NCBI GenBank assembly: GCA_014324045.1
Contig: JACOMY010000024.1
Span: 1-64,000, forward strand
Reading direction: 5' to 3'
DNA from: Rhodospirillales bacterium
Lineage (GTDB): Bacteria > Pseudomonadota > Alphaproteobacteria > Kiloniellales > JACOMY01
Length of the DNA stretch: 64,000 nucleotides
In this document: one piece after another, positions 6,792 through 25,223 of the stretch
Position numbering within the stretch: the stretch's first letter is position 1
Layout of the letters: every line of letters begins with the position of its first letter
Made by a program: the position numbers and the translations under genes
The notes under the pieces: generated by a model
Databases searched by the model: none
Seen by the model: the letters and a program-made list of their open reading frames with translations, nothing else
What the model was told of the DNA's origin: nothing

Positions 6792-8633
6792 TCAATTTTG
6801 CCCGGCTACGCGTGCCGTCCGACCGCGCCCGATATAGGCTTCGATCACGCGCACATCGGCGCGGACCTTTTCCGGGGTGCCTTCTGCAACCTTTTGCCCC
6901 CGGTTCATCACGACAATCCGGGCCGAGAGCCGGTTGACGAATTTCAGATCGTGGTCGATCAGAAGGATACCGATATTGCGGTCACGCCCGATGGTCTCTA
7001 ACCGGTCGGCGAGGTCATCGGTCTCGGCCGGGTTCATGCCGGCGGCAGGCTCGTCAAGCAGCAGGATCGCAGGCTCTTGAGCGAGCGCGCGTGCGATCTC
7101 AAGCCGCTTACGCGCGCCATAGGGCAAGTTTTCGGCCCGCATATCTGCGATGTCGTCCAGGTCGAAGGCCGCAAGTTCGCGAAGCGTGACTGCGTGCGCC
7201 TTGGCTCGGGTGTGGCCCGCAGCCAAAGCGGCAACCAGCACGTTTTCATAGGCGGTCAAACCGCTGAACAGCCGCAGATTCTGAAAACTCCGCGCAACGC
7301 GGCGGTTGATCACACCGTGGGGCGGCAGATAGGTCAGATCTATGTCCCCGATACGGGCTGTACCTGTATCGGCGTCGTATTGCCGGGTCATCAGGTTGAC
7401 GAGCGTCGATTTGCCCGCACCGTTGGGGCCGATGAGGCCGGTAATCCGGCCCGTCGGTACCTCAAAACTCACACCGTCGACGGCTTTGACGCCTGCGAAA
7501 TTTTTCGATAGACCTTGCGCTACAAGCTGCATTTCGCCCACTGGCACAGGGGCGTCGGCTGGGCGCGTAGCGCGCCCAACCCGTCGCAGAAGCAAGGCGC
7601 CCGCGCCGGGACCAAGCTCGAACCCGCCTACAATCCCTTGCGGGCGTAGCCAAATCACTAAGAGGATCGCCAGGCCAAGCGCCACAGTGGTCAGACCAAA
7701 GACTTCGGGTAGAGTGAAGCCCAGAACGGTCGTGCCCCCCTCGAGGTTGCGGACCGAGTTCTGCATAAACGTCACGGCGATCACGCCCACAACCGCGCCG
7801 CCGACCGAAGCCATGCCGCCCACGATCATCATCACGACTTGGGCGAACACCAGGTTGAGATAGAAAGATGCGGGCGAGAAAGCGCCAAGGATATGCCCAT
7901 AGAGCGCGCCAGCGACGGTAGCCATCGCGCCCGACAGGCTCCAGGCGATCAGCCGGGCGCGGCTCGGTGCGATCCCCAGCACGGTCGCGGCGTCCTTGTC
8001 ATCGCGTACAGCGCGGGCGAAGAGCCCCCAGCGGCTCTCGCGATAAACCCGCGCGATCAGGACGAACACCAACGCCGCGATCAGGACAATGAGCAGATCG
8101 GTTACACGCGGCACGCCATAGAAGGTTTGGCTGCCCCGAGTAATCTCTCTTGCGCTTACGGCGACGGAATGGACGATGATCAACAGCCCCAGCGTGGCGA
8201 TGGTGGCCGAGGCCCCCGCAAGCCGTGCAATCGCGCTTCCGGTCAGCAAAGCCACCGCCAGCCCGGCCAGCGCTACGAAGGGCATCGCCATCAAGACCGA
8301 CAGCTCATATCCCGCCAGCCATCCCGGCAAATCCGGCAGGGCCGAACGTTGTAGCCCTACAGGCATCGTCAAAATGCCGGACAGATAGGCGCCCACGGTC
8401 ATAAAGGCCCCATGGCCGAAGCTTACGATCCCAGTATTACCGCAATAGACCATCAGTGAGACAACTGCCGCCACGTTCACACACATCAATACGGCAATGC
8501 GCTCACCCGTGCGCCCAAAGCCCCAGACCAGTACCGCCACTGTGACTAGCAGCACCGCCAGCGACGCAACCGTGCGCAGTCCATTGGCCGCTTGCAGCCG
8601 TGTTGGATGGGTATTGAGCGAAGGTGCGTTCAT
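6792..8633 (-). CDS. fused Liv-type permease (LivM-like) plus ATPase (LivG-like)
   Basis: N-terminal membrane domain followed in the same ORF by 'GLIGPNGAGKSTLVNLMTRQY ... LPYGARKRLEIARALAQEPAILLLDEPAAGMNP'; start at MNAPSLNTHP. Confidence 0.9.
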   Translation of the reverse strand: MNAPSLNTHPTRLQAANGLRTVASLAVLLVTVAVLVWGFGRTGERIAVLMCVNVAAVVSLMVYCGNTGIVSFGHGAFMTVGAYLSGILTMPVGLQRSALPDLPGWLAGYELSVLMAMPFVALAGLAVALLTGSAIARLAGASATIATLGLLIIVHSVAVSAREITRGSQTFYGVPRVTDLLIVLIAALVFVLIARVYRESRWGLFARAVRDDKDAATVLGIAPSRARLIAWSLSGAMATVAGALYGHILGAFSPASFYLNLVFAQVVMMIVGGMASVGGAVVGVIAVTFMQNSVRNLEGGTTVLGFTLPEVFGLTTVALGLAILLVIWLRPQGIVGGFELGPGAGALLLRRVGRATRPADAPVPVGEMQLVAQGLSKNFAGVKAVDGVSFEVPTGRITGLIGPNGAGKSTLVNLMTRQYDADTGTARIGDIDLTYLPPHGVINRRVARSFQNLRLFSGLTAYENVLVAALAAGHTRAKAHAVTLRELAAFDLDDIADMRAENLPYGARKRLEIARALAQEPAILLLDEPAAGMNPAETDDLADRLETIGRDRNIGILLIDHDLKFVNRLSARIVVMNRGQKVAEGTPEKVRADVRVIEAYIGRGRTARVAGQN

Positions 8634-8983
8634 CCACCAGTCCCGGCCGGTTCGCCAATCGACTCGGCAGTGGTGACCTGCCGACAATAGCCCTTGATGG
8701 TGCGCAAGTTGTGGTCGTGACGCTCTTGCGTGTGGCCCAGGCAGGCGTCGGTCACCTGCATGACCTCGACCCCTGCGGCCTGGCAGGCAGTCTGAAGCGC
8801 TTGCATGTTCGGGATCGCACTTGCTTCGAACTGCTCAAAGAACCAGAGGTATTGCTCGTCGAACGCCGCTTGCGAAAGATCCTTGAACTCCGCCTCCTCA
8901 CGATGGGCCGAGCGATTCTGCACATCGATGAACAAGGGCGCACTTCGGTTCGGAACCAAGGAGGCGTGGCGGGTCAGGGGCAT
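8630..8983 (-). pseudogene. isochorismatase-like cysteine hydrolase with in-frame internal deletion
   Basis: Family N-terminus 'APLFIDVQN...IPNMQALQTACQAAGVEVM' joined directly to family C-terminus 'QVTDACLGHTQERHDHNLRTIKGYCRQVTTAE'; middle with catalytic Lys/Cys absent. Confidence 0.75.
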
Positions 8984-10771: not shown

Positions 10772-11842
10772 ATGCTGACAACCCCTTCGGACAGGGCGCT
10801 GGTCCCCTTCGTTAGCGTGGAAAATATGCTGGCGCTGGTGCATCGGCGCGGGCTCGATCGATGCCTGCGCGAGATCACCGATTACATCGCCGAGGACTTC
10901 GCCCGCTGGAACCTCTTTGACAAAACCCCCCGGGTCGCATCGCATTCGCCGATTGGCGTGATCGAGTTGATGCCCACCTCGGATGGCACCCAATATGCGT
11001 TCAAATTCGTCAACGGGCACCCGGCAAATACCAAGCACGGGCTGCAAACCGTCACGGCCTTTGGCGTGCTCGCGGATGTGGGGACAGGCTATCCCAAACT
11101 CTTTTCCGAGATGACGCTGCTGACAGCCCTGCGCACAGCGGCGACGTCCGCGCTGGCCACCCGCACTCTGGCTCCAAAGGGCGCCCAAACTGTGGCAATC
11201 ATCGGCAATGGTGCGCAGTCCGAGTTCCAGATCCGCGCCTTGGCCGCGGTGTGCGGGTTCACCGCCTTCCGCCTCTATGACATCGACGCCGCGGCGACCG
11301 GGCGCTGCGCTGGCAACCTATTGGCGCTGGGCCTGTCGCTGACGGCTTGCGGCTCTGTTGAAGAGGCCGTCGAGGGCGCAGAAGTCATCACCACCTGCAC
11401 CGCCGACAAGCGCTATCAGACCATCCTGACCGATAACCTGGTCGGCGCCGGGGTGCATGTGAATGCGATCGGTGGCGACTGTCCTGGCAAGACCGAACTG
11501 CATCGCGATATTCTGCTGCGCGCTAGTGTCTTCGTCGAATACACCGAGCAAACCAGGATTGAAGGAGATATCCAACAGCTCGACCCAAAGCATCCCGTAA
11601 CCGAGTTGCACGATGTCCTGGCAGGCAAAGCGGCAGGCCGGACCGACGCCGGGCAAATCACCGTGTTCGACGGGGTGGGCTTTGCTATCGAGGACTTCTC
11701 GGCCCTGCGCTGGCTGGCGGATCGCGTGTCCGAGGACGCGCCTTCTGACCAGCTCGATCTTATCACCGACCCAGATGACCCTCGCGACCTTTACGGTATG
11801 TTGCTACGTTACGCGCAGCATACCTCTACGAACATTGGTTAA
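10772..11842 (+). CDS. ornithine cyclodeaminase family protein
   Basis: 'FKFVNGHPANTKHGLQTVTAFGVLADVGTGYPKLFSEMTLLTALRTAATSALATRTLAPKGAQTVAIIGNGAQSEFQ'. Confidence 0.93.
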   Translation: MLTTPSDRALVPFVSVENMLALVHRRGLDRCLREITDYIAEDFARWNLFDKTPRVASHSPIGVIELMPTSDGTQYAFKFVNGHPANTKHGLQTVTAFGVLADVGTGYPKLFSEMTLLTALRTAATSALATRTLAPKGAQTVAIIGNGAQSEFQIRALAAVCGFTAFRLYDIDAAATGRCAGNLLALGLSLTACGSVEEAVEGAEVITTCTADKRYQTILTDNLVGAGVHVNAIGGDCPGKTELHRDILLRASVFVEYTEQTRIEGDIQQLDPKHPVTELHDVLAGKAAGRTDAGQITVFDGVGFAIEDFSALRWLADRVSEDAPSDQLDLITDPDDPRDLYGMLLRYAQHTSTNIG

Positions 11843-12154: not shown

Positions 12155-12164
12155 CGCTCGCTTG

Positions 12165-13427
12165 TCAGACCTCCTCGGGAACCCGGATTTCCGCGTTGCC
12201 CCGATAGGCCAGATAGCTCCGTTGAATGGCGATCTGATCGGCGATGAACTTCGCATCGTGCCAGACGCCCCAGATGAAGGAGGAACCGCGACGGGTCTGC
12301 CAGGGGAGACCGACGAAATATAGGCCCGGCTCGCGGCTCACCCCGCGCTGGTGCAGCGGACGCCCCTTGTCGTCAAATGTGTCCGCCTCGATCCACCCGA
12401 AATCGAATTGATACCCTGTAGCCCACAGGATCGTTCCGATCCCAGCCTGTTTCAGGTCGAGTTCGAATACAGGAGACGTCATGCAATCGGGATCGTTCGG
12501 AATGATCCGCGCTTCTGGCTCCGGTGGAAGATTAAGCCCGTTCCGTGCGATGTAGTCGTCGGCCTCGTCCAGTATCGACAGGTAGTTTGCGTCGCCGGCT
12601 TCGAGGTTCTTGCGCAGATCGTCCGAAAAGATGACCAGACCGTCATTGTAGCCTGCGGTCATACCCAACAGAGTAATGCCTTGATGGGCAAGCCTGCGGA
12701 AGTCGATCGTCTTGCCACCGCCGGCGCCGCTGACCGCGATGGTCACATGTTCCGTCCCGGGACCGGGGCTGTCCGCGTTCCATTTGCCAAGGACCCCAAG
12801 CCACCAGACATTGTCGCGCCCGCGATAGCGGCGGGGCGGGCGGTCATGGGGACCGATCGAAAGGTACACCTTGCGGCCCGCCTTCATCAACTCTTCTGCG
12901 ATCTGCACACCGGATGAGCCGCCCCCGACGACCAGGACAGCGCCTTCCGGCAATTGGCCGGGATTGCGATAGGCGTTCGAATGCATCTGAAGCGGGCCTG
13001 CGTCGGCTGGAACAACAGGCGGGATCGCCGGTTTCTGGAAGGGCCCGGTGGCGGCGACCACGTGGCTTGCCTTGATCGTGCCGTTTGAGGTTGCGACTGC
13101 AAAAGATCCGCCTTGCGGGGTCACGGCCGTCACCTCTACCCCGGTTCGGATCGGTGCGTTGAAGCGCTTGGCGTAAGCTTCGAAGTAGGCGGCGACACTT
13201 CCCTTGTCGGCGAAGGCGTCGTCGTCACAGTCGAATTCCAAATTCGGGAACCGGTCATGCCAGGCAGGACCGTTGGCGACCAGCGAATCCCAACGTCCTG
13301 TGCGCCAGCGTTCCGCGATGCGATCGCGTTCAAACACCACATGGTCGATGCCTAGATCGGTCAGATGCTCGCTCATCGCGACGCCAGCCTGGCCGGCCCC
13401 AACCACAACTGTGTCAAATTCTTCCAT
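12165..13427 (-). CDS. flavin-containing monooxygenase-like NAD(P)/FAD oxidoreductase
   Basis: 'FDTVVVGAGQAGVAMSEHL', 'VLVVGGGSSGVQIAEEL' dinucleotide-binding motifs. Confidence 0.88.
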   Translation of the reverse strand: MEEFDTVVVGAGQAGVAMSEHLTDLGIDHVVFERDRIAERWRTGRWDSLVANGPAWHDRFPNLEFDCDDDAFADKGSVAAYFEAYAKRFNAPIRTGVEVTAVTPQGGSFAVATSNGTIKASHVVAATGPFQKPAIPPVVPADAGPLQMHSNAYRNPGQLPEGAVLVVGGGSSGVQIAEELMKAGRKVYLSIGPHDRPPRRYRGRDNVWWLGVLGKWNADSPGPGTEHVTIAVSGAGGGKTIDFRRLAHQGITLLGMTAGYNDGLVIFSDDLRKNLEAGDANYLSILDEADDYIARNGLNLPPEPEARIIPNDPDCMTSPVFELDLKQAGIGTILWATGYQFDFGWIEADTFDDKGRPLHQRGVSREPGLYFVGLPWQTRRGSSFIWGVWHDAKFIADQIAIQRSYLAYRGNAEIRVPEEV

Positions 13428-13527
13428 CGCTGCCTCCCTAACAGTTAATTGAGTACCATAGGCGCGCACCTCGTCACCGGCACACAATGAAAAGCGAAAG
13501 CCTTGCTCGGGTTCTCACTAACCAAGC

Positions 13528-13542
13528 TTAGGCACTGGCTAA
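13528..13542 (+). promoter_or_regulatory. motif copy 1: TTAGGCACTGGCTAA (TTAGG-N5-GCTAA), candidate LysR box
   Basis: Divergent intergenic region between FMO-like gene and ridA. Confidence 0.65.
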
Positions 13543-13623
13543 TCGGAAGTGAGGGAAAGGGTGGTTCCGGCTTTGCGCGTTTGCCGGATAGAACTAGGGA
13601 CATTCTTTGAGAGGACAACGCCT

Positions 13624-14052
13624 ATGGCCCACACCCGCATTCGCACATTCAACACTGCTGACACCTATCCAGAACAGAATCTCGATAACGATCTTTGTCA
13701 GGCTGTAGTCACACAGGGCGGCAAGACCGTCTGGCTGCGCGGCCAATGCCCCCAGAACCTAGACGATGCCAGGAACATCGACAGCCATGACCCGGTAGAG
13801 CAGACCCACAAGGTCATGCAAAACATCAAGCAGTTGATAGAAGAAGCCGGCGGCGAGATGGCGCATCTGGTCAAGGTCGTCGTTTACATCACCGATGTGC
13901 GCTACCGGGAGGCGGTCTACCGGACCATGGGCGAGTATATAAAGGATGTGCATCCAGTCTCGACGGGTCTGGTAGTTCAAGCACTCGCACGGCCCGAATG
14001 GCTGGTGGAGATCGACGGCACCGCCGTTATCCCCGAGGGTTACAGCCCGTGA
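13624..14052 (+). CDS. RidA family protein
   Basis: 'AVVTQGGKTVWLRGQCPQNLD...TVIEEAGG'-type RidA pattern, here 'IKQLIEEAGGEMAHLVKVVVYITDVRYREAVYRTMGEY'. Confidence 0.9.
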   Translation: MAHTRIRTFNTADTYPEQNLDNDLCQAVVTQGGKTVWLRGQCPQNLDDARNIDSHDPVEQTHKVMQNIKQLIEEAGGEMAHLVKVVVYITDVRYREAVYRTMGEYIKDVHPVSTGLVVQALARPEWLVEIDGTAVIPEGYSP

Positions 14053-14723
14053 CCTTTTCGCTTGTGGCCCGCTGCGCCGGGACAGGCATGTTCGGTGTAG
14101 CAATTTCGTCGTCTTCTCCGGCGGTTGCGGCGCGCTGTTCATACGCGCGAGCCGGTGTCGGGGCGGTGGCTAGCCAGAATATCACCGATCCCACCCTCGG
14201 CCCTTTTGCGCTGAACCTCATGCAGGGCGGTATGTCCGCAATCGAGGCCCTTGCCGCTGTGCGCGATCAGGGACGCTTCATCGACTACCGGCAGGTGCTC
14301 GCGATTGACACCACAGGTCGCACGGCGATTCATTCGGGGCCGAATTCGCTGGGGATCTGGGCTCAGGCCGAAGGCCGGGACGTGGCCTCGGGCGGCAATC
14401 TGCTGGCCAATGACGGCGTTCCGGCTGCCATCGTCGGGGGGTTTGAGGATGCCTCGGGCCAGCTGGGCGACAGGCTGATTGCCGCTCTGCGCGGGGGACT
14501 CGCGGCAGGGGGTGAAGCCGGGCCGGTTCATTCAGCGGGCATGCTGCTGGTCGACAAGGTCAGCTGGCCGGTGGCCGATTTGCGCTGTGACTGGACCGAG
14601 GACTGCCCGATCGAAGCGGTGGCGGTCGCATGGGATATCTACAAACCGCAACTCGATGCCTATGTGCAGCGCGCGCTCGATCCTTCGGCCGCGCCGTCCT
14701 ACGGTGTACCGGGGGACGAATGA
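14049..14723 (+). CDS. DUF1028 domain-containing protein (GTG start overlapping ridA stop)
   Basis: 'FSLVARCAGTGMFGVAISSSSPAVAARCSYARAGVGAVASQNITDPTLG'. Confidence 0.88.
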   Translation: MTFSLVARCAGTGMFGVAISSSSPAVAARCSYARAGVGAVASQNITDPTLGPFALNLMQGGMSAIEALAAVRDQGRFIDYRQVLAIDTTGRTAIHSGPNSLGIWAQAEGRDVASGGNLLANDGVPAAIVGGFEDASGQLGDRLIAALRGGLAAGGEAGPVHSAGMLLVDKVSWPVADLRCDWTEDCPIEAVAVAWDIYKPQLDAYVQRALDPSAAPSYGVPGDE

Positions 14724-14941
14724 TGACAGACCCGAGTTTTGACGACTGGCAAGGCAAATCCGCCGCCCTGACGCTCCGGGCGGCTGCATGCCGGGACGGT
14801 GTCCGTCAACACGGCGGACGCTTGTCGGCACAAACGCCATTCGGGGGTATGAAACAGTCAGGATTTGGGCGCGATTTATCGCTGCATTCCTTTGACAAAT
14901 ACACGGCCTTTAAGACACCGTGGATCCAGTACAAGATTTGA
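14720..14941 (+). pseudogene. aldehyde dehydrogenase remnant (PuuC-like): N-terminal ~19 codons joined to C-terminal ~50 codons, plus a 1-nt frameshift
   Basis: Frame 2 'MTDPSFDDWQGKSAALTLR'; then frame 0 'RLHAGTVSVNTAD' from 14781; then frame 2 'LSAQTPFGGMKQSGFGRDLSLHSFDKYTAFKTPWIQYKI'. Confidence 0.8.
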
Positions 14942-14968
14942 GCAGATCGACTGCTTGAGGACCTGCCC

Positions 14969-15904
14969 ATGCTGCACTACACCCTGCGGCAGCTCGAATA
15001 TTTCGTTACCGTGGGCGAGACGGGCAGCATTGCGCGGGCGTCCCAGCGGATCAATGTCTCGTCTCCCTCGATCTCCTCTGCGATATCGCAGCTTGAAGCC
15101 GAATTCGGCCTGCCGCTCTTCGTGCGTCAGCATGCACAAGGATTGTCCCTGACCCAAGCCGGACGGCAGATGTTGGAGCAGGCAAAGCTGGTCCTGCGTG
15201 AAGCCGGCGCGCTGATGGACATCGCGGGGGACATTTCCGGGTCTGTCCGTGGACCGCTCAGCGTGGGCTGCCTGTTGACCTTTGCGCAGCTTGTTCTGCC
15301 CGTTCTGCGCCGTGAGTTCGAAGCAGAATTTCCAGAGGTGCGTATGCGCCAGCGCGAGTTGAACCAGGTGGAATTGTTCAGCGCCCTCAGGCGATCCGAG
15401 ATCGACGTTGCCGTTACCTACGATCTCGATCTGCCGGCCGATCTGCAATTCACCGCTCTGGTCCGATTGCCGCCTATTGCGCTGATGGGCGAGGCGCATC
15501 CGCTCTCCAATCAGGCTGAGGTGACAATGGAAGAGTTGATCGCACACCCGATGGTGATGCTCGATCTGCCGCTGAGTTCCGACTATTTCCTGTCACTCTT
15601 CGACGATGTCGGCGAAAAACCTGTCATCGCCGAGCGCACCCGGGATATGGCGGTGATGCGCTCCATGGTTGGCAACAATTTCGGTTATTCGATTGCCAAT
15701 GTCAGGCCCCTCAGCGATACATCCCCGGATGGCAATATCGTTCGTGTCCTGCCCATCGGCGGTAATATCCGGGCGCTTAGGATGGGGCTCTTGACGGCAC
15801 GAGGTGCCGACCGGTCAAATGTCGTGCGGGCCTTCATGGAATATGCGGGCAAGCTGGTCCGGACAGGGCGGCTTGACCGGATCGGCGGACAGCCACTCGT
15901 GTAA
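14969..15904 (+). CDS. LysR family transcriptional regulator
   Basis: 'YTLRQLEYFVTVGETGSIARASQRINVSSPSISSAISQLEAEFGLPLFVRQHAQGLSLTQAG'. Confidence 0.95.
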   Translation: MLHYTLRQLEYFVTVGETGSIARASQRINVSSPSISSAISQLEAEFGLPLFVRQHAQGLSLTQAGRQMLEQAKLVLREAGALMDIAGDISGSVRGPLSVGCLLTFAQLVLPVLRREFEAEFPEVRMRQRELNQVELFSALRRSEIDVAVTYDLDLPADLQFTALVRLPPIALMGEAHPLSNQAEVTMEELIAHPMVMLDLPLSSDYFLSLFDDVGEKPVIAERTRDMAVMRSMVGNNFGYSIANVRPLSDTSPDGNIVRVLPIGGNIRALRMGLLTARGADRSNVVRAFMEYAGKLVRTGRLDRIGGQPLV

Positions 15905-15905
15905 C

Positions 15906-15920
15906 TTAGCGCGGGCCTAA
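15906..15920 (-). promoter_or_regulatory. motif copy 2 (minus strand): TTAGGCCCGCGCTAA, candidate LysR box
   Basis: Between lysR stop and amine dehydrogenase start. Confidence 0.6.
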
Positions 15921-15993
15921 TCAACGATTTCGCAAGGCGGCCTTTTGCGCTTTGGAATTTGCTGCGACTTTGGCCAAACCGATAGGAGAGCTC

Positions 15994-18072
15994 ATGCTTG
16001 ACGGACGCGATTCCCGCTATGACGTGCTTTTTGAACCGCTGACCATTGGCCCGGTGACGGCCAAGAATCGATTCTACCAGGTCCCCCATTGCAACGGCGG
16101 CGGCTATCGTGACCCCTCGGCGGCAGCTGCCATGCGCGGGATCAAATCCGAGGGTGGCTGGGGCGTGATCTTTACCGAACAGTGCGAGATGCATCACACC
16201 TCGGAAATCGCACCCTTTATCGAATTGCGCCTGTGGGAAGACAAGGACATCCCGATGCTGGCCAAGATGGCGGGCAAGATTAAGGAACACGGGGCGCTGG
16301 CCGGCATCCAACTGGCCTATTCCGGGATCAACGGACCTAATTTGTACACCAAGGAAGTGCCGCGGGCCGTCTCGCCTGGGCCGATCCGCACCTTCACCAA
16401 CGATCCGGTTCAAGCGCGGGCGCTGTCCAAGGAGGAGATCCAGGACCTGCGACGCTGGTTTGTGAACGCGGCGACGCGCGCCAAGGAAGCGGGGTTCGAC
16501 CTGATTTGCCTTTACGGTGCCCATGGGTTCGGCATCTTACAGCATTTCCTGAGCCGCGCGACCAATATGCGCGACGATGAATATGGCGGCAGCCTTGAAA
16601 ACCGCTCCCGTTTTGCCCGCGAGGCGATCGCTGACATGCGCGAGGCTGTCGGCGACACGATGGGGCTGACGTTGCGGGTGAGCCTCGACGAGACCATCGG
16701 CGATCTGGGCTTTTCCAATGCCGAGGTGCGCGAGTTCATCGACATGAATAAGGACCTGCCGGACCTCTGGGATCTGGCGCACGGAACGTGGGAGGATTGC
16801 TCGGGTTCGAGCCGCTTCAAGGAAGAAGCCGCGCAGGAGGCACTGGTGCGCGGCATACGCGAACTGTCGTCGAAACCCGTAGTCGGCGTGGGCCGCTTCA
16901 CCTCTCCGGAGGTGATGGCCAGGATGGTACGCACGAGTCTGTTGGATGCCATCGGTTGCGCGCGGCCGTCAATTGCAGATCCGTTTCTGCCGAAAAAGAT
17001 CGAGACGGGCCGAATCGAGGATATCCGTGAATGCATCGGCTGCAACATCTGCATCACCGGCGACATGACCATGTCAATCAGTCGCTGCACCCAGAACCCC
17101 ACCTTCATGGAAGAATGGCGCAAAGGCTGGCATCCCGAACGGATGAACCCGAAAGGCAGCAGTTCGAACGTGTTGGTTGTCGGCGCAGGGCCAGCGGGTC
17201 TGGAGGCCACGCGAGCGCTGGCGGAGCGCGGTTATGACATTGCCCTGGCCGAGGCGGGCAGGGTTCTGGGCGGGCGCGTGGCACGCGAGCGGCTGTTGCC
17301 GGGGCTGAGCGCATGGGGGCGTGTGGTCGATTACCGCGAATACCAGATCAGCCAGAAACCCAATGTGGAGAGTTACTTCGACAGCGTGCTTGATGCTGAT
17401 GCGATCTTGGAGTTCGGATTCGAGAACATCTGTATTGCCACAGGCGCAAAATGGCGGGCCGATGGGGTCAGTCGGCAGCATGTGGTGCCGATGCCTATCG
17501 ACGCCGCCATGCCGATCTTCACACCCGACGACATCATGGACGGCAAGCGGCCTTCGGGCCGTGTGGTGATCTATGACGACGATCACTATTACATGGGCGG
17601 CGTTATGGCCGAGCTTTTGCAGCAAGAAGGTTGCGAGGTCACCATCATCACCCCGTCAGCCTACCTGTCTGACTGGACGGTGAATACGCTGGAGCAACAC
17701 ACGATTCACAAACGTCTGGCTGAGATGGAAGTGGAGATCGTGCTGAACCGAGGTGTGATTGCCATCTGCGCAGACCATGTGGTGTCGAATTGTACCTATA
17801 CCGACCAGACCCGGCAGATCGACTGTGATGCCGTGATCGTGGTGGCCTCCAAGATGGAGAACAATCGAATTTACCACGATCTGAAGGCGCGCGAGACCGA
17901 CTGGGCCGATGCCGGAATCAAGTCGGTGCGAATCATCGGCGATGCGGAGGCACCCGGGCCAATCGCTTGGGCGACCTATGCCGGCCACCGTTATGCGCGC
18001 GAGTTGGACTGCGAAGATATCGGCGACGCGCTTCCCTTCCGCCGCGAGATCACGGAACTGGCTGTCGATTGA
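15994..18072 (+). CDS. trimethylamine dehydrogenase-family flavoprotein (FMN, 4Fe-4S, nucleotide-binding domain); histamine-dehydrogenase-like substrate pocket
   Basis: 'VLFEPLTIGPVTAKNRFYQVPHC', 'CIGCNICITGDMTMSISRCTQNPTFMEEWRKGWHPERM', 'VLVVGAGPAGLEATRALAERGYD'. Confidence 0.9.
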   Translation: MLDGRDSRYDVLFEPLTIGPVTAKNRFYQVPHCNGGGYRDPSAAAAMRGIKSEGGWGVIFTEQCEMHHTSEIAPFIELRLWEDKDIPMLAKMAGKIKEHGALAGIQLAYSGINGPNLYTKEVPRAVSPGPIRTFTNDPVQARALSKEEIQDLRRWFVNAATRAKEAGFDLICLYGAHGFGILQHFLSRATNMRDDEYGGSLENRSRFAREAIADMREAVGDTMGLTLRVSLDETIGDLGFSNAEVREFIDMNKDLPDLWDLAHGTWEDCSGSSRFKEEAAQEALVRGIRELSSKPVVGVGRFTSPEVMARMVRTSLLDAIGCARPSIADPFLPKKIETGRIEDIRECIGCNICITGDMTMSISRCTQNPTFMEEWRKGWHPERMNPKGSSSNVLVVGAGPAGLEATRALAERGYDIALAEAGRVLGGRVARERLLPGLSAWGRVVDYREYQISQKPNVESYFDSVLDADAILEFGFENICIATGAKWRADGVSRQHVVPMPIDAAMPIFTPDDIMDGKRPSGRVVIYDDDHYYMGGVMAELLQQEGCEVTIITPSAYLSDWTVNTLEQHTIHKRLAEMEVEIVLNRGVIAICADHVVSNCTYTDQTRQIDCDAVIVVASKMENNRIYHDLKARETDWADAGIKSVRIIGDAEAPGPIAWATYAGHRYARELDCEDIGDALPFRREITELAVD

Positions 18073-18077
18073 GCGCG

Positions 18078-19202
18078 ATGCTCGATATCCTCAACCGACT
18101 GATCGCCTTCGATACGGTCAGCGCGAAATCAAACCTCGCGCTTATCGACTTTGTGCAAAGCTATCTCGGCGAACGAGGGTTTCGCATCACCCGACTTGAC
18201 GATCCAGACGAACCGAAAGCCGGGCTTTATGCCGAGATTGGACCGGCAGGACCGGGCGTTTTGCTGTCGGCCCATACGGACGTTGTGCCCGTCGAAGGTC
18301 AGGCCTGGACGCGCGATCCGTTCCGGCTCACGCTTGAGGAGGAGCGCGTCTATGGACGCGGTACCACGGACATGAAGGGCTTCGTCGCGGCCATGCTGAA
18401 TGCCGCCGATGACGCCAGACGTGCTCCGTTGCGCGAACCCTTGAAATTGGTCCTGTCCTATGACGAAGAGATCGGATGTGTCGGGATCTCCCGCATGATG
18501 GAGCGTCTGAGGCCGCTGATCGGCAAGCCGCGCATGGCCATCGTAGGCGAGCCGACCGAGATGCAAGTCGCCATAAGCCACAAAGGCAAACGGGCTTATC
18601 GCGCCATCATCGGCGGCGAGGCCGGCCATTCCGCCATGGCACCACATTTTGTGAACGCGCTGAATGTGGCAGCAGATTTTGTGCAGGCCTTGCAGGGGAT
18701 TGCGCGAGATCTATGCATCAGCGGGGCACAGGACCCGGGTTATGATATCCCCTGCAGCACGGTGCATGTAGGTACCCTTTCGGGTGGGCGTGCCCTCAAT
18801 ATCGTGCCTGACGAGGCGCAGATGACCTTTGAAGTTCGCCATGTGGCGCTGGATGACCCCGACGCCCTGGAAGGTCGCATTATGGCTGCGGCAGAGCGGA
18901 TTTGCGAAAGCTACGGCGCGGGGGCCCAGATTGAGATAGCGTCGCCCAGCAGGTATCCGGGCCTTGACACGCCGCCCGACACGGCGGTTGTGGGCGAAGT
19001 GTCGCGCTTGGCGCTTAGCGGGATAACCAAGGTCGCTTTCGGAACGGAGGCGGGGTTCTTCGCGCAATTAGGTATCCCCACCGTGGTCTGCGGGCCAGGC
19101 TCCATGGCGGGGCAGGGGCACAAGGCTGATGAATTCCTGATGCTGCCCCAATTGACGGCTTGCGAGACTATGCTGAGTCGGCTCGTTGACAGCATGAGCT
19201 AG
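18078..19202 (+). CDS. argE: acetylornithine deacetylase / M20 family peptidase
   Basis: 'LLSAHTDVVPVEGQAWTRDPFRL', 'VYGRGTTDMKGFVAAML', 'MAIVGEPTEMQ', 'HKGKRAYRAIIGGEAGHS'. Confidence 0.92.
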   Translation: MLDILNRLIAFDTVSAKSNLALIDFVQSYLGERGFRITRLDDPDEPKAGLYAEIGPAGPGVLLSAHTDVVPVEGQAWTRDPFRLTLEEERVYGRGTTDMKGFVAAMLNAADDARRAPLREPLKLVLSYDEEIGCVGISRMMERLRPLIGKPRMAIVGEPTEMQVAISHKGKRAYRAIIGGEAGHSAMAPHFVNALNVAADFVQALQGIARDLCISGAQDPGYDIPCSTVHVGTLSGGRALNIVPDEAQMTFEVRHVALDDPDALEGRIMAAAERICESYGAGAQIEIASPSRYPGLDTPPDTAVVGEVSRLALSGITKVAFGTEAGFFAQLGIPTVVCGPGSMAGQGHKADEFLMLPQLTACETMLSRLVDSMS

Positions 19203-19218
19203 TGAAGGGGATGGAGCG

Positions 19219-20079
19219 ATGCGAAAGGTCACGGTTGCAGCAACCCAGATGGCCTGTGGCGCGGAGACACCGGCCAATATCGCGCGGGCAGAGGCGCTGG
19301 TGCGCGAAGCGGCGGGGTGCGCAGATTTTCCTTTTGCAGGAGCTTTTTGCAAGCCGGTATTTCTGCCAGGATGAATATCCGGGCGATCTGAACCGTGCTT
19401 TGCTGGCACAGGGCTACCCAACATTGGCACGCTTTGAAGCATTGGCCGCAGAGCTGCAGGTCGTGTTGCCGGTGTCCTTTTTCGAGCTTGCGGGCCAGGC
19501 GCGGTTCAACTGCGTCGCCGTGATCGACGCCGATGAACGGCGTCTGGGGCTTTATCGTAAGACCCATATTCCCCATGGAGCCGACTATCAGGAGAAATAC
19601 CATTTCTCGCCAGGTGACACGAGGTTTCGCGTTTGGGACACGGCCTTCGGCAAAATTGGCGCCGGCATCTGCTGGGACCAGTGGTTTCCCGAAGCTGCGC
19701 GCGCCATGGCGCTTAGTGGGGCAGAGCCCCGGCTTCGGCTCTCTGAGATCGGGGCGGATGACTGGGATTCCGCCCCCCATTGGCAGCGTGTGCAGCAGGG
19801 CTACGCCGGGGCGGAACCTGGCGCCGCTAATCGCCTCCGGGCCGAGCTGGGCAGATTCGGAACCGAGATGACCTTCTATGGCTCGTCCTTCATCGCCGAC
19901 GAGACGAATTGGAGGCCAAGGTCGCCGAAGCCAATCAGATAAGCCAGACGATGCTGGTTCATGAGTTCGATCTCGGTGCCGTTGCCTGCCACCGAGCCTG
20001 CTTGGGCATCTTCCGTGACCGCCGGCCCGAGCATTACGGTGCGCTGATGACGCTTGATGGACGTTTCGCTCGGTCATAG
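19219..20079 (+). pseudogene. carbon-nitrogen hydrolase (N-carbamoylputrescine amidase-like), frameshifted
   Basis: Frame 1 'MRKVTVAATQMACGAETPANIARAEALVREAAG' -> frame 2 'GAQIFLLQELFASRYFCQDEYPG...GICWDQWFPEAARAMALSGAE' -> frame 1 'EAKVAEANQISQTMLVHEFDL...DRRPEHYGALMTLDGR*'; scrambled patch near 19720-19860. Confidence 0.85.
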
Positions 20080-20129
20080 GAAATACCTAACGCGATAGGC
20101 GCGAAACTTGGACATTTTGTGAAAACAAG

Positions 20130-20144
20130 TTAGGCAGGAGCTAA
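20130..20144 (+). promoter_or_regulatory. motif copy 3: TTAGGCAGGAGCTAA, candidate LysR box; CCTA-N6-TAGG at 20086-20099 upstream
   Basis: About 86 nt upstream of potA start. Confidence 0.6.
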
Positions 20145-20230
20145 GAAGCGCTGAGGGAGTCGAGTCTTCTGTCCCTGGCGCTTCATTCATAGGATCGTCT
20201 TAATTCAACCATGGTCCGGAGACAGAGCCC

Positions 20231-21322
20231 GTGCCGCAGGACAGGGAAATCGCCATTGAAGTGCAAAATGCAGTCAAGCATTATGGCACATTTACCGCCC
20301 TTAAGACGATCTCCCTTTCCATCCGGGACAACGAGTTCTTCACGCTCCTCGGGCCGTCCGGCTGCGGCAAGACCACGCTTTTGCGGATGATCGCAGGCTT
20401 TGAAGATGTGACCGAAGGGGCAATCTACCTTTATGGTGATGAGATCGACAGGCTGCCGCCGCACAAACGGCCGGTAAACACCGTCTTTCAGAATTACGCG
20501 CTGTTCCCTCACATGACCGTTCTGGAGAACGTGGGCTTTGGGCTGGAGATGCTGGGGAAATCCAAGGCCGAGGCCCGCGCGCGGGCAGGCGAGGTGCTAG
20601 AAATGGTCCGGCTGTCGCAATTCGCCGCCCGCAAACCGTCGCAACTGTCGGGCGGGCAGCAGCAACGGGTGGCCCTTGCCCGCGCTCTGGCACCGCGGCC
20701 CAAGGTTCTTCTGCTGGACGAGCCGCTGTCGGCGCTTGACCTGAAATTGCGCAAGGCCATGCAGGTGGAACTCAAGCACCTTCAGCGCGAGACGGGAATC
20801 ACATTCATTTTCGTCACCCACGATCAAGCAGAGGCTCTGACCATGTCGGACCGTATCGCGGTCATGTCCGAAGGGGAACTGCAGCAGCTGGGCGAAGCAC
20901 GCGAGATTTACGAAAGGCCGCGCAACGTCTTCGTCGCGGATTTCATCGGCGATACCAACCTGATGGAAGTGACCGTCGACAAGGTCGAGGGCAGCCGGGC
21001 GCAGTGCCATTTAGGCGGCGGGCACAAGCTGACATGCGATTCCGTCGACGGGATCGGCCCGGGGGCGAAGGTGCACATGTCACTGAGGCCCGAGCGGCTG
21101 TTCCTTTCGGCAGATCCGGTCGAAGCGGAAAGCCTGTCGGGCACGGTGCGGGAGACAATCTATATCGGCACCGATATCGCGACCGTCGTTGAGCTCGAGG
21201 ACGGCCCGCAGTTCACGATCCGGTCGTCGAATTCCACCCGCGGCAATGCTAGAGTCTTCGAAGCGGGAACCCCGGTTGCCGTTAACATGGAAATGGGGGC
21301 GGCACGCCTCCTTGTCGATTGA
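20231..21322 (+). CDS. potA: spermidine/putrescine-type ABC transporter ATP-binding protein (GTG start)
   Basis: 'LLGPSGCGKTTLLRMIAGFEDVTEGAIYL', 'LSGGQQQRVALARALAPRPKVLLLDEPLSALDLKLR'. Confidence 0.93.
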   Translation: MPQDREIAIEVQNAVKHYGTFTALKTISLSIRDNEFFTLLGPSGCGKTTLLRMIAGFEDVTEGAIYLYGDEIDRLPPHKRPVNTVFQNYALFPHMTVLENVGFGLEMLGKSKAEARARAGEVLEMVRLSQFAARKPSQLSGGQQQRVALARALAPRPKVLLLDEPLSALDLKLRKAMQVELKHLQRETGITFIFVTHDQAEALTMSDRIAVMSEGELQQLGEAREIYERPRNVFVADFIGDTNLMEVTVDKVEGSRAQCHLGGGHKLTCDSVDGIGPGAKVHMSLRPERLFLSADPVEAESLSGTVRETIYIGTDIATVVELEDGPQFTIRSSNSTRGNARVFEAGTPVAVNMEMGAARLLVD

Positions 21323-22242
21323 TGGCTGGCGGGGCGGCGCCCGGCGGCTCTGTTCAGAGCAAGACTTACCGTGAGGCGCGTGGTTGGCTCTTGCTGCCCG
21401 CATGGGTGACGCTGGGTATTCTGACCCTTGCCCCGCTGACGATCATGCTTGTCTATTCCTTCCTGACAAAGGAGTTCCGGGGCGGGGTCATCTGGGAGTT
21501 CAGCCTCGACGCCTATGATCAATTCTTCTTTGATCGCGGTCTCTTCGGGGATGAGCCGCCACGCATCGAGTGGACCTATATCGGGATATTCTGGCGCTCG
21601 ATTTGGCAGGCCGGGGCGGCGACGATCCTGAGCCTGCTGATCGGGTTCCCGACCGCCTGTTTCATTGCCACCCGCCCGGAGAAAGAGCGCACGCTCTGGG
21701 TCTTTCTTGTCACTATTCCTTATTGGGTGAACCTGCTCATTCGCACCGTGTCGATGAAGTTCCTACTGCGTGACGAAGGGCCACTGAGTGACGGTCTGAT
21801 AGCCATAGGCGCGATTTCTGAGCCTCTCGGCATCGTCAATACGAATCTCGCTGTGCAATTGGGCCTCTTCTATTCCTACCTGCCATTCATGGTCTTGCCG
21901 ATCTATGCGGCAGTGGAGCGCTACAACTTCGCGCTCTCGGAGGCCGCGGCGGACCTCTATGCCCCGCGCTGGACCGTGCTGCGCCGGATCTTGCTGCCTG
22001 TGGTGAAGCCGGGAATCGTGGCGGGCTGCATCCTTGTCTTCGTGCCTTCGCTTGGCTCTTTCCTTGCGCCGGACCTGTTGGGCGGGGCGAAGAATTTCAT
22101 GATCGGCTCGCTCATCGAAGAACAGTTCAAGGGCAACGCCGGCAATTGGCCCTTTGGGGCGGCGGCGTCGATGATCCTGCTGACACTGGTGCTGATCCTG
22201 CTCATCGCCTCGGCCCGGCAAAGTCAGAAGAGGGATGGGTGA
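21322..22242 (+). CDS. potB: polyamine-type ABC transporter permease
   Basis: Multi-TM BPD_transp_1 protein with '[29 protein letters not shown]'; order after potA. Confidence 0.9.
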
Positions 22243-23054
22243 TGGCAAAACCATACGATCTGCGTCGCTATCCTGGCTTCTTCGGCATCACGATCCTCTG
22301 TCTGGTTATCCTCTACGCGCCCCTCGCGGTCGTTGCCGTCTACAGCTTCAACGCTTCGCCCTCAATCACGATCTGGGAAGGCTTTTCCCTGCGCTGGTAT
22401 GTGGACGTCTTCACCGGGCCGGAAAGTGCCAAGTTCAAGGAAGCCGCCTGGAACAGTTTCATTATCGCCATCGCCGCAGCCACGACGGCCACGGTGATCG
22501 CCACGCTGGCGGCAACGGCGGTCCTGCGTACGGGCAAGTTCCGGCTGCGCACCCTGTCCGTCGGCCTGATCTCGTTGCCGCTGATGGTGCCCGAAATCGT
22601 GACCGCCGTGGCCACGCTGATCTTCTTCAATGCTATTGCCTTTGAAAGGGGGCTGATGACGATCCTGTTCGCCCATATCACCTTTTGCATTCCCTTTGCC
22701 TATATGCCGATTTCGGCCCGCATGCAGGGGATCGAGGCGAGTTATGAACAGGCGGCGATGGATCTTTATGCCACCAAACGCCAGGCCTTCATGCGCATCC
22801 TGATGCCTCTAATGATGCCGGGGATTGTGTCGGGCTTCATCCTTGCTTTCATCATTTCGCTGGACGACTTCATCATCACCAATTTCGTCAAAGGAGCTGG
22901 GGTCGAGACACTGCCCACGGCGATCTTCGGCGCGGTCAAACAGGGCATCAAGCCCAATATCATGGCCATTTCCACGTTGCTGCTTGCCGTGTCCATCCTA
23001 ATGGTGGCATTCTCTTGGCTGATCGGTCGACGGAACCAAGTGGAAGGGCGTTGA
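22242..23054 (+). CDS. potC: polyamine-type ABC transporter permease
   Basis: '[51 protein letters not shown]'. Confidence 0.92.
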
Positions 23055-24082
23055 TGGAGACGATCTATTCCGAGAAGCACCGCCTGCGCGACGCGCAGAC
23101 CGAGCTTTACGGCGGCGAGCTTGTCTATCCCTTCGAGCGGCCTTCGCGTATGGATTATATCCTCGACCGTCTCAACACGGTGAAGCTGGGCTCGATCACC
23201 GCGCCCGATCCTCTGGACATGGTGCCCGTGATGGCCGTGCATGATGCGGGATATGTCGCCTTTCTGGAACGGGCTTGGCCGGACTGGGTCGCGGCCGGGT
23301 TCAAGGGCGAAGCGATTGCAGCGAATTGGCCCGCCCGCCGCATGGCACAGACCTGCCCCGACCATATCGATGGCCAGCTTGGCTATTACGCACTGGCCGC
23401 CGAGACCAGCATCACCGAAGGCACCTGGGCCGCCGCGCGGGCCGGCGCTGCGGTCGCGTTGACCGGGGCCCGGCGCATCCAGGACGGGGCGCGGGGCTGT
23501 TTCGCACTGTGCCGGCCGCCGGGGCATCATGCGGCGTTCGACATGTATGGCGGCTATTGTTTTCTGAATAACGCAGCCATTGCAGCACAGAATCTGCGGG
23601 GCGCGGGCCTTGCGCGGATCGCCGTTCTGGACGTGGATTTTCACCATGGCAATGGCACGCAGGACATTTTCTATGACCGGGACGATGTGCTGTTCGTTTC
23701 GCTGCACGGAGAGCCACAGCAGACCTTCCCCTATTACCTCGGCTATGCTGCCGAGATCGGGATAGGGGCTGGGGTTGGGTACACGCTAAATCTTCCAATG
23801 CCGCCCGGGACCGGCTTCGATGCATGGCGCAGGGCACTGGGGACAGCGCTGGACCGCGTGGCAGAATTCGGCCCCGATGCGTTGATCGTCTCGCTCGGGG
23901 TCGATACGTTCGAGACCGACCCGATCAGCTTTTTCAAACTCCGCTCTGCCGATTTTGTCACCATGGGTGCGGATATCGCCCAGGCCGCTCTGCCCACGCT
24001 GTTTGTGATGGAAGGCGGCTATGACATCACCGAGATCGGGGTCAACACCGTCAACGTGTTGGAAGGATTTCTCAGCCGCTGA
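23054..24082 (+). CDS. histone deacetylase family protein, acetylpolyamine amidohydrolase-like
   Basis: 'FALCRPPGHHAAFDMYGGYCFLNNAAIAAQNLR..GLARIAVLDVDFHHGNGTQDIFYDRDDVLFVSLHG'. Confidence 0.92.
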   Translation: METIYSEKHRLRDAQTELYGGELVYPFERPSRMDYILDRLNTVKLGSITAPDPLDMVPVMAVHDAGYVAFLERAWPDWVAAGFKGEAIAANWPARRMAQTCPDHIDGQLGYYALAAETSITEGTWAAARAGAAVALTGARRIQDGARGCFALCRPPGHHAAFDMYGGYCFLNNAAIAAQNLRGAGLARIAVLDVDFHHGNGTQDIFYDRDDVLFVSLHGEPQQTFPYYLGYAAEIGIGAGVGYTLNLPMPPGTGFDAWRRALGTALDRVAEFGPDALIVSLGVDTFETDPISFFKLRSADFVTMGADIAQAALPTLFVMEGGYDITEIGVNTVNVLEGFLSR

Positions 24083-24145
24083 ACGCGGCCCAACCATGTC
24101 CGCCCGACCGTGCATCAACCAAGCATCAACCAACAGGAGACCAAC

Positions 24146-25183
24146 ATGAAAACACTTCTCAAGACGACCGTTGCGGCCGCCGCCATGGCGCTGATTGCCG
24201 GGGCCGCATCCGCCGAAGGCAAGCTGGTGATCTATCACTGGTTCGAATACATCCCGCAAGAGCTGCTCGACAAGTTCAGCACGGAAACGGGCGTCGAGGT
24301 CGTCATGGACACCTATGACAGCAATGAAAGTCTGCTCGCCTCGCTGAAGGCCGGGGCCCTCGGCACCTATGACGTGGCCGTGCCGGGCGATTACATGGTT
24401 CAGATCATGGCGAACGAAGGTCTTCTCGACACGATTGCCGAAGGCGAATTGGCCAACAAGGGCAACATCGCGCCGGAATGGGCCGACCCAAGCTTTGATC
24501 CTGGCCGGGCATCGTCGATCCCCTATCAATGGGGCTCCACGTCCTTTGCCGTGAGCCGCGATGTCTACTCGGGCGACATCGCCACAACCGATATCCTGTT
24601 CAACCCGCCGGCGGAATTGTCCGGCAAGATCAACATGCTCGACGCTCAGGGTGAAGTGCTGGCCATGGCCGCGCTTCACATGGGCATACCGCAATGCTCG
24701 TCCGACAGGGATCAGCTGCGCGCGCTCAATGACATGTTGCAAGAGGCGAAGACACACTGGGCCTCGTTCAATTCCGATACGGCGAAAGAGGTTCTGGTCT
24801 CGGGCGATGCGGCTGTCGGCCAGATCTGGGATGGATTTGCCGCCAAAGGCCGGGCTGAGGGCGCCAATATCGAATATGCTTTCCCGACGCAGGGCTATGT
24901 GGTCTGGATGGATAACGTCGTGCTCCTGAAGGACGCGCCCAACCGCGAGAATGCGATCAAGTTCATGGACTTTCTTCTGGAGCCTGAAAATATCGCCGCA
25001 GTTTCGAACTTCGCGCGGTACAATGCCGGTTTGACCGCTGTTGGCGAGTTCCTTGACCCGTCGCTCGCCGAACAACCGGAAAGCAATCCGCCTGCCAATG
25101 CTGGCCCTGGGGTCTTCATCGAGGTGTGCGATCAGGCCACCCAGGAAGTCTATGACCAGATCTGGACCAACCTGAAGAAATGA
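24146..25183 (+). CDS. potD: spermidine/putrescine-type periplasmic binding protein
   Basis: 'LVIYHWFEYIPQELLDKFSTETGVEVVMDTYDSNESLLASLKAG' with signal peptide. Confidence 0.93.
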   Translation: MKTLLKTTVAAAAMALIAGAASAEGKLVIYHWFEYIPQELLDKFSTETGVEVVMDTYDSNESLLASLKAGALGTYDVAVPGDYMVQIMANEGLLDTIAEGELANKGNIAPEWADPSFDPGRASSIPYQWGSTSFAVSRDVYSGDIATTDILFNPPAELSGKINMLDAQGEVLAMAALHMGIPQCSSDRDQLRALNDMLQEAKTHWASFNSDTAKEVLVSGDAAVGQIWDGFAAKGRAEGANIEYAFPTQGYVVWMDNVVLLKDAPNRENAIKFMDFLLEPENIAAVSNFARYNAGLTAVGEFLDPSLAEQPESNPPANAGPGVFIEVCDQATQEVYDQIWTNLKK

Positions 25184-25194
25184 TTGTAATTTGA

Positions 25195-25223
25195 CGCCGC
25201 TCCGGATCTCGTCCGGAGCGGCG
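25195..25223 (+). terminator. GC-rich hairpin after potD: CGCCGCTCCGGA-TCTCG-TCCGGAGCGGCG
   Basis: Perfect 12-bp stem, 5-nt loop, 12 nt after potD stop; no clear U-tract. Confidence 0.8.

Follow-up and report, generated by a model that had tools for sequence, protein, structure and literature searches.

The closest described relatives of the dehydrogenase analyzed here are the histamine dehydrogenases (HDHs) of Rhizobium sp. 4-9 (UniProt Q60I59, PDB 6DE6, EC 1.4.9.1) and Nocardioides (Pimelobacter) simplex (3K30), together with the trimethylamine dehydrogenase (TMADH) of Methylophilus W3A1 (1DJN). The Rhizobium enzyme uses agmatine and 1,3-diaminopropane at 10 to 13% of its histamine rate (PMC10180351). 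A further member of the same TMADH/HDH family, the 6-hydroxypseudooxynicotine oxidase Pno of Agrobacterium tumefaciens S33, is 46 to 48% identical to HDHs (PMC5500553) but acts in nicotine degradation. HDH has so far been mainly a food-analysis reagent and biosensor enzyme: Our literature search returned no paper placing it in a catabolic pathway, none tying histamine catabolism to HDH in Rhodobacterales, and no report on the genomic context of the Rhizobium sp. 4-9 enzyme.

The closest described pathway is that encoded by the hin genes of Pseudomonas putida U and P. aeruginosa (hinABCD, hinFLHG, and hinK). In the published accounts, HinC is a histamine aminotransferase, HinA a permease, and HinK a LysR-type regulator responding to imidazole-4-acetate (PMC6467879, PMC8231116). 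The same accounts describe HinD as an aldehyde dehydrogenase (ALDH), HinF as an FAD monooxygenase (EC 1.14.13.5), HinL as an enamine deaminase, and HinH and HinG as amidases (PMC6467879), with hinFLHG leading from imidazoleacetate to aspartate (PMC8231116).

The window—the whole 64,000-nucleotide stretch of DNA analyzed here—carries an HDH-like gene among candidate counterparts of these enzymes. We consider it very probable that the protein is a histamine dehydrogenase within a histamine-catabolic cluster serving the full pathway; histamine, not a polyamine, is most likely its natural substrate.

The dehydrogenase and its active site

The gene occupies 15994–18072 on the plus strand as an intact frame, with ATG at 15994 and the stop at 18072, and its 692-residue product combines an Oxidored_FMN domain with an NAD(P)/FAD-binding domain. 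phmmer scores were 1230 bits to Rhizobium HDH 6DE6 (E = 0, which excludes chance resemblance), 822 bits to Nocardioides HDH 3K30, and 528 bits to TMADH; identities over aligned columns were 77%, 55%, and 41%, respectively. No NCBIfam equivalog matched the protein above cut-off. In a 61-sequence maximum-likelihood tree, the window HDH joined the Aliishimia sequence (support 100/100) and fell, with Rhizobium HDH, in a 30-member clade (100/100), Nocardioides HDH occupying a separate branch.

Published Rhizobium HDH residues (PMC10180351) convert to window numbering by a constant offset of 3, and 18 of the 18 active-site and tunnel residues checked are identical in the window protein, among them Gln60, Ile69, Phe72, Glu74, Asn110, Tyr171, His174, Phe176, Trp263, Asp265, and Asp354 (Rhizobium numbering). 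The pocket string common to both enzymes is CQIFENFYAHGFRTWDDM, and the TMADH letters at those columns are CYDRSH-YAHSYRDWEEI. Pocket and clade together bear out the first-pass annotation, which had called the pocket HDH-type rather than TMADH-type. The cofactor sites that it had named are likewise present: The FMN-binding cysteine is Cys33 in FYQVPHC, aligned with TMADH Cys30, and the 4Fe-4S cysteines (C347-x2-C350-x2-C353...C365) align with TMADH Cys345/348/351/364. Rhizobium HDH has the same cofactor cysteines.

TMADH shares the fold, these cysteines, and the Tyr and His of its triad with the window HDH, but its aromatic bowl (Tyr60/Trp264/Trp355) is replaced and most pocket positions are changed. 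The Tyr60 column holds Gln63 and the Trp264 column Trp266, both as the annotation had placed them by eye; its third substitution, Trp355 to Asp, is right by function though not column for column, as Trp355 lies opposite a one-residue gap with Asp357 adjacent. In PMC10180351, this aspartate is numbered Asp358 for the Nocardioides enzyme and Asp354 for that of Rhizobium. Gln63, Trp266, and Asp357 stand as HDH-type residues in the sequence alignment with TMADH and both HDHs. Most paralogs at 49 to 54% identity keep the Trp and Asp and mostly have Glu at the Gln position, so Gln is the sole real discriminator of the three.

Nocardioides HDH shares Gln/Trp/Asp and most pocket residues but has Tyr/Gly/Asp, along with other changes, where the window HDH has the Phe/Asp/Cys triplet of the Rhizobium enzyme (Phe179, Asp268, and Cys269). 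The substrate Trp is followed by Glu-Asp-Cys in the window and by Glu-Gly-Asp in Nocardioides, and Phe179 faces a Tyr. Swaps at these positions of Nocardioides HDH altered redox potential and substrate inhibition (PMC10180351); from its Rhizobium-type residue set, we predict Rhizobium-like kinetics for the window HDH. A single-sequence AlphaFold model reached a mean pLDDT of 34 and was unusable, and 6DE6, at 77% identity, was preferred as evidence.

Gene content and comparison with the hin pathway

The features of the cluster are as follows.

12165–13430, minus strand: HinF-like FAD monooxygenase (FMO), candidate imidazoleacetate monooxygenase; Pyr_redox_3/FMO-like, TIGR04046 relative below cut-off
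13624–14052, plus strand: RidA-family protein, HinL-like enamine/imine deaminase; PF01042, 94% identical to the L001–L003 copies
14049–14723, plus strand: DUF1028 protein, HinH-like, Ntn-hydrolase fold; PF06267 at 189 bits, GTG start, predicted N-terminal Thr
14720–14941, plus strand: ALDH remnant; about 20 codons of the N-terminus and about 39 of the C-terminus survive
14969–15904, plus strand: LysR-type regulator, HinK-like; phmmer and Foldseek best matches include 6m5f
15994–18072, plus strand: HDH, with 6-S-Cys-FMN and 4Fe-4S; 77% identity to 6DE6, identical pocket
18078–19202, plus strand: ArgE/M20 deacylase, HinG-like, candidate N-formylaspartate deformylase; Peptidase_M20, NF005710 and TIGR01892 above cut-off
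19228–20052, plus strand: frameshifted AguB relic, N-carbamoylputrescine amidase-like; three tblastn segments, in frames 3/1/3
20231–21322, plus strand: PotA-like ATPase, proposed histamine importer; 87 to 91% identical to syntenic L001–L003 copies
21319–22242, plus strand: PotB-like permease; 89 to 92% identical to L001–L003
22242–23054, plus strand: PotC-like permease; open frame
23054–24082, plus strand: acetylpolyamine-deacetylase-like protein (Hist_deacetyl), accessory, not conserved; PF00850
24146–25183, plus strand: PotD-like solute-binding protein; 185 bits to E. coli PotD

The reaction set drawn from these enzyme classes, ahead of any comparison with the published hin pathway, came out the same as that pathway. 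An FAD monooxygenase, an enamine deaminase, and two amidases—the amidase activities assigned by fold family—occur in one cluster (12165–14723 and 18078–19202). On Burkholderia, Caballeronia, and Ideonella plasmids (Burkholderiales), the order FMO-RidA-DUF1028-ArgE equals hinF-L-H-G, with ArgE directly after DUF1028 in these hinFLHG-like operons. The best PDB matches of the LysR protein by phmmer were 3fzv and 6m5f (187 and 186 bits; next full-length match, 69 bits), and its model (pLDDT 91) returned 6m5f, described as HinK, as best Foldseek match (E 5.7e-30); at about 33% identity, the resemblance to HinK does not prove that the two regulators share an effector. That FMO, RidA, DUF1028, and ArgE are equivalents of HinF, HinL, HinH, and HinG is suggested by indirect lines: the activities named for the hin products, the order of the genes, and the match to HinK.

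The two systems differ at the first step, assigned to the flavin dehydrogenase HDH in the window and to the aminotransferase HinC in Pseudomonas, and in the transporter, an ABC importer in the window versus the permease HinA. The cluster holds no HinC-type aminotransferase, and the best match in the genome to a HinC-like aminotransferase is 35%. Unlike in Pseudomonas, the window genes all lie in one cluster. The ALDH of the hin pathway is matched in relatives of the cluster but deleted in the window copy.

In the proposed route, PotABCD would import histamine—a role that we infer from linkage alone—and HDH would oxidatively deaminate it to imidazole-4-acetaldehyde and ammonia via 6-S-cysteinyl-FMN, as established for the 77% homolog; the two would take the places of HinA and HinC. 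Electrons would pass via the 4Fe-4S cluster to a carrier, probably electron-transferring ETF by analogy with TMADH. An ALDH would convert the aldehyde to imidazole-4-acetate; because the cluster copy is deleted, that enzyme must be encoded elsewhere in the genome. The HinF-like FMO would hydroxylate the imidazole ring, and the DUF1028, RidA, and ArgE proteins would contribute ring opening, imine nitrogen removal, and formyl removal to give aspartate, the split of the two amide steps between DUF1028 and ArgE being a guess. The HinK-like LysR protein would control the cluster.

Several observations touch individual components. ETF beta/alpha-like ORFs, recognized by their starts, lie near HDH in three loci (e.g., L070, 18713–20400) and are a possible electron acceptor for HDH. 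The window RidA seemingly lacks an Arg that we take, from a motif judged by eye, to be required by imine-hydrolyzing RidA proteins; even so, its copies in other genomes share 94% identity with it. The GTG start of the DUF1028 gene places a Thr right behind the initiator (compare PMC9140057), and the sole PDB relative of its product is 2IMH.

Linkage of HDH to the downstream module

With the HDH protein as query, 80 loci were found, nearly all in Rhodobacterales; linkage counts use the 64 in which the sequence extends 7 kb or more to each side of HDH. LysR genes are present in 60 of these, Rid in 56, FMO in 55, DUF1028 in 53, and ArgE in 49; PotA/B/D are found in 46, a PuuC-like ALDH in 34. FMO, Rid, and DUF1028 all lie within 11.5 kb of HDH in 50 of the 64 Rhodobacterales loci, and two or more of the three do so in 56, leaving eight with none or one within reach. 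Both counts are 0 of 18 for loci of HDH paralogs (47 to 61% identity), most of which come from genomes in the same order as the window. A protein on Rhizobium gallicum plasmid pRgalIE4872d matches the assayed Rhizobium HDH at 676 of 689 residues (98%), and its neighbors are FMO, LysR, ALDH, Rid, DUF1028, ArgE, and Pot genes. Shinella plasmids carry the same kind of HDH cluster.

The reverse test searched for FMO in 398 Pseudomonadota genomes, 38 of which encode a homolog of at least 59% identity. These homologs mostly have Rid and/or DUF1028 alongside, outlining an FMO-Rid-DUF1028(-ArgE) module across Pseudomonadota; neither gene adjoined FMO homologs of at most 46% identity in the five fetched. 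Ten of the 38 genomes encode an HDH of at least 73% identity, within about 7.5 kb of FMO in all ten. In several HDH-less carriers, a class III aminotransferase and an ALDH adjoin the module, with an APC permease in two loci. Aminotransferases at least 57% identical to the two types beside the module occur in 12 of 28 HDH-less genomes versus 1 of 10 HDH genomes, so HDH and the HinC-like aminotransferase are largely mutually exclusive at the first step. Module carriers without HDH include L115, L118, L119, L161–L169, and L173–L178; in about 16 of the 28 such genomes tested, a close HinC-like aminotransferase is missing too, so another first enzyme may exist.

The enzyme class is already known, and the cluster is a hin pathway variant with another first enzyme and transporter. 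We think it likely that HDH and an ABC importer stand in for the aminotransferase and permease of the Pseudomonas pathway in a mobile cluster for histamine catabolism that is common among marine Rhodobacterales and also occurs in Rhizobiaceae, which would give HDH its natural role and make DUF1028 a ring-opening or amide-cleaving hydrolase. The linkage points to a probable purpose for an enzyme known from analytical use, and it predicts histamine degradation by many marine Rhodobacterales, a likely importer, and a testable DUF1028 function. One pathway would swap its first enzyme and transporter between lineages while the downstream module is kept.

Transfer, decay, and alternative readings

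Nucleotide similarity to loci L001–L005 spans about 12164–25204 (13 kb) at 73 to 82% identity and then ends; beyond 25204, L001 alone still matches, weakly (65%), over part of its conserved Dus gene. The genome that carries the segment belongs to an alphaproteobacterial order other than Rhodobacterales. The window HDH is 91% identical to that of Aliishimia versus 56% in the sole same-family genome searched. GlnE, on the same contig 2 kb downstream of the segment, has the opposite affinity, with 52% identity in the same family versus 40 to 42% in Rhodobacterales genomes. The 12.16–25.20 kb cluster therefore appears to have been laterally acquired from Rhodobacterales; a binning error is argued against because the sequence on both flanks belongs to one contig. 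The segment does not stand out in G+C or GC3, and an ABC gene on the left flank (6792–8687) is uninformative for transfer, as none of the genomes compared had a homolog of it at the cut-off used.

The cluster's ALDH and AguB are remnants in this genome. In the slot between DUF1028 and LysR, the last 38 to 39 codons survive at 85 to 87% identity to ALDH, with an N-terminal scrap recognized by eye in the translation. Other loci have a full-length ALDH in this slot; L009 has a full gene, and L007 keeps a 58-codon remnant; no ALDH match was found in L002–L006 or L008, and L001 has a distant match elsewhere. AguB is unbroken in L002 (14569–15414) and L005 but split over frames 3/1/3 in the window.

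The histamine reading is weakened because AguB and the acetylpolyamine deacetylase are of polyamine type and PotABCD resembles polyamine importers. From these genes, the first-pass annotation had drawn its substrate hint, naming histamine, agmatine, or a polyamine. An HDH-family enzyme acting on agmatine, putrescine, or another polyamine, with PotABCD, AguB, and the deacetylase as its pathway, would also suit the roughly 10% agmatine activity of Rhizobium HDH (PMC10180351) and the PuuC-like ALDH of related loci. We nevertheless judge it quite unlikely: Of the 64 loci, 7 have the deacetylase gene close to HDH, and AguB, present in few, is frameshifted here, so the hint is not supported. FMO, Rid, and DUF1028, which do recur beside HDH, match hinFLH, and the regulator is HinK-like. 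We know of no role for these three partners in polyamine breakdown. No AguA- or ureohydrolase-type gene was evident among the recurrent neighbors, judged by sequence starts, and an agmatine route was rejected as the main reading. Most aromatic and acidic positions that we take to contact spermidine are kept in the window PotD, but the equivalent of E. coli PotD Asp168 is Ala, and 46 of 49 close homologs have Ser there, a hint that the ligand may not be spermidine. PotABCD is conserved, but we read it as the putative importer of histamine; some HDH loci carry a different Pot system (PotA at 52 to 60%). Of the candidates proposed, the context picks histamine and does not favor agmatine or a polyamine. 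Trimethylamine or dimethylamine as substrate, to which the common fold, cofactors, and 528-bit match would lend themselves, is extremely improbable given 41% identity, Gln in place of Tyr60, no Trp at Trp355, and differences at most published pocket positions.

A third alternative is compatible with HDH identity and opposes the full-pathway reading: The cluster may have decayed here, HDH merely detoxifying histamine or supplying ammonia. The reduction of ALDH to about 60 recognizable codons, the frameshifts in AguB, and a genome of 2.8 Mb speak for it, and the full pathway is weakened here because the cluster ALDH is deleted and an unlinked one is needed. Yet the frames of FMO, Rid, DUF1028, LysR, HDH, ArgE, and the Pot genes are open, L001–L003 are also without a cluster ALDH but share the core genes at high identity, and the best ALDH homolog elsewhere in the genome (at C6, unlinked) is 51% identical. 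We regard such decay as improbable, and the full histamine-catabolic pathway is preferred.

Just outside the transferred segment, 10772–11842 encodes an ornithine-cyclodeaminase-family protein (NF005762 above cut-off).
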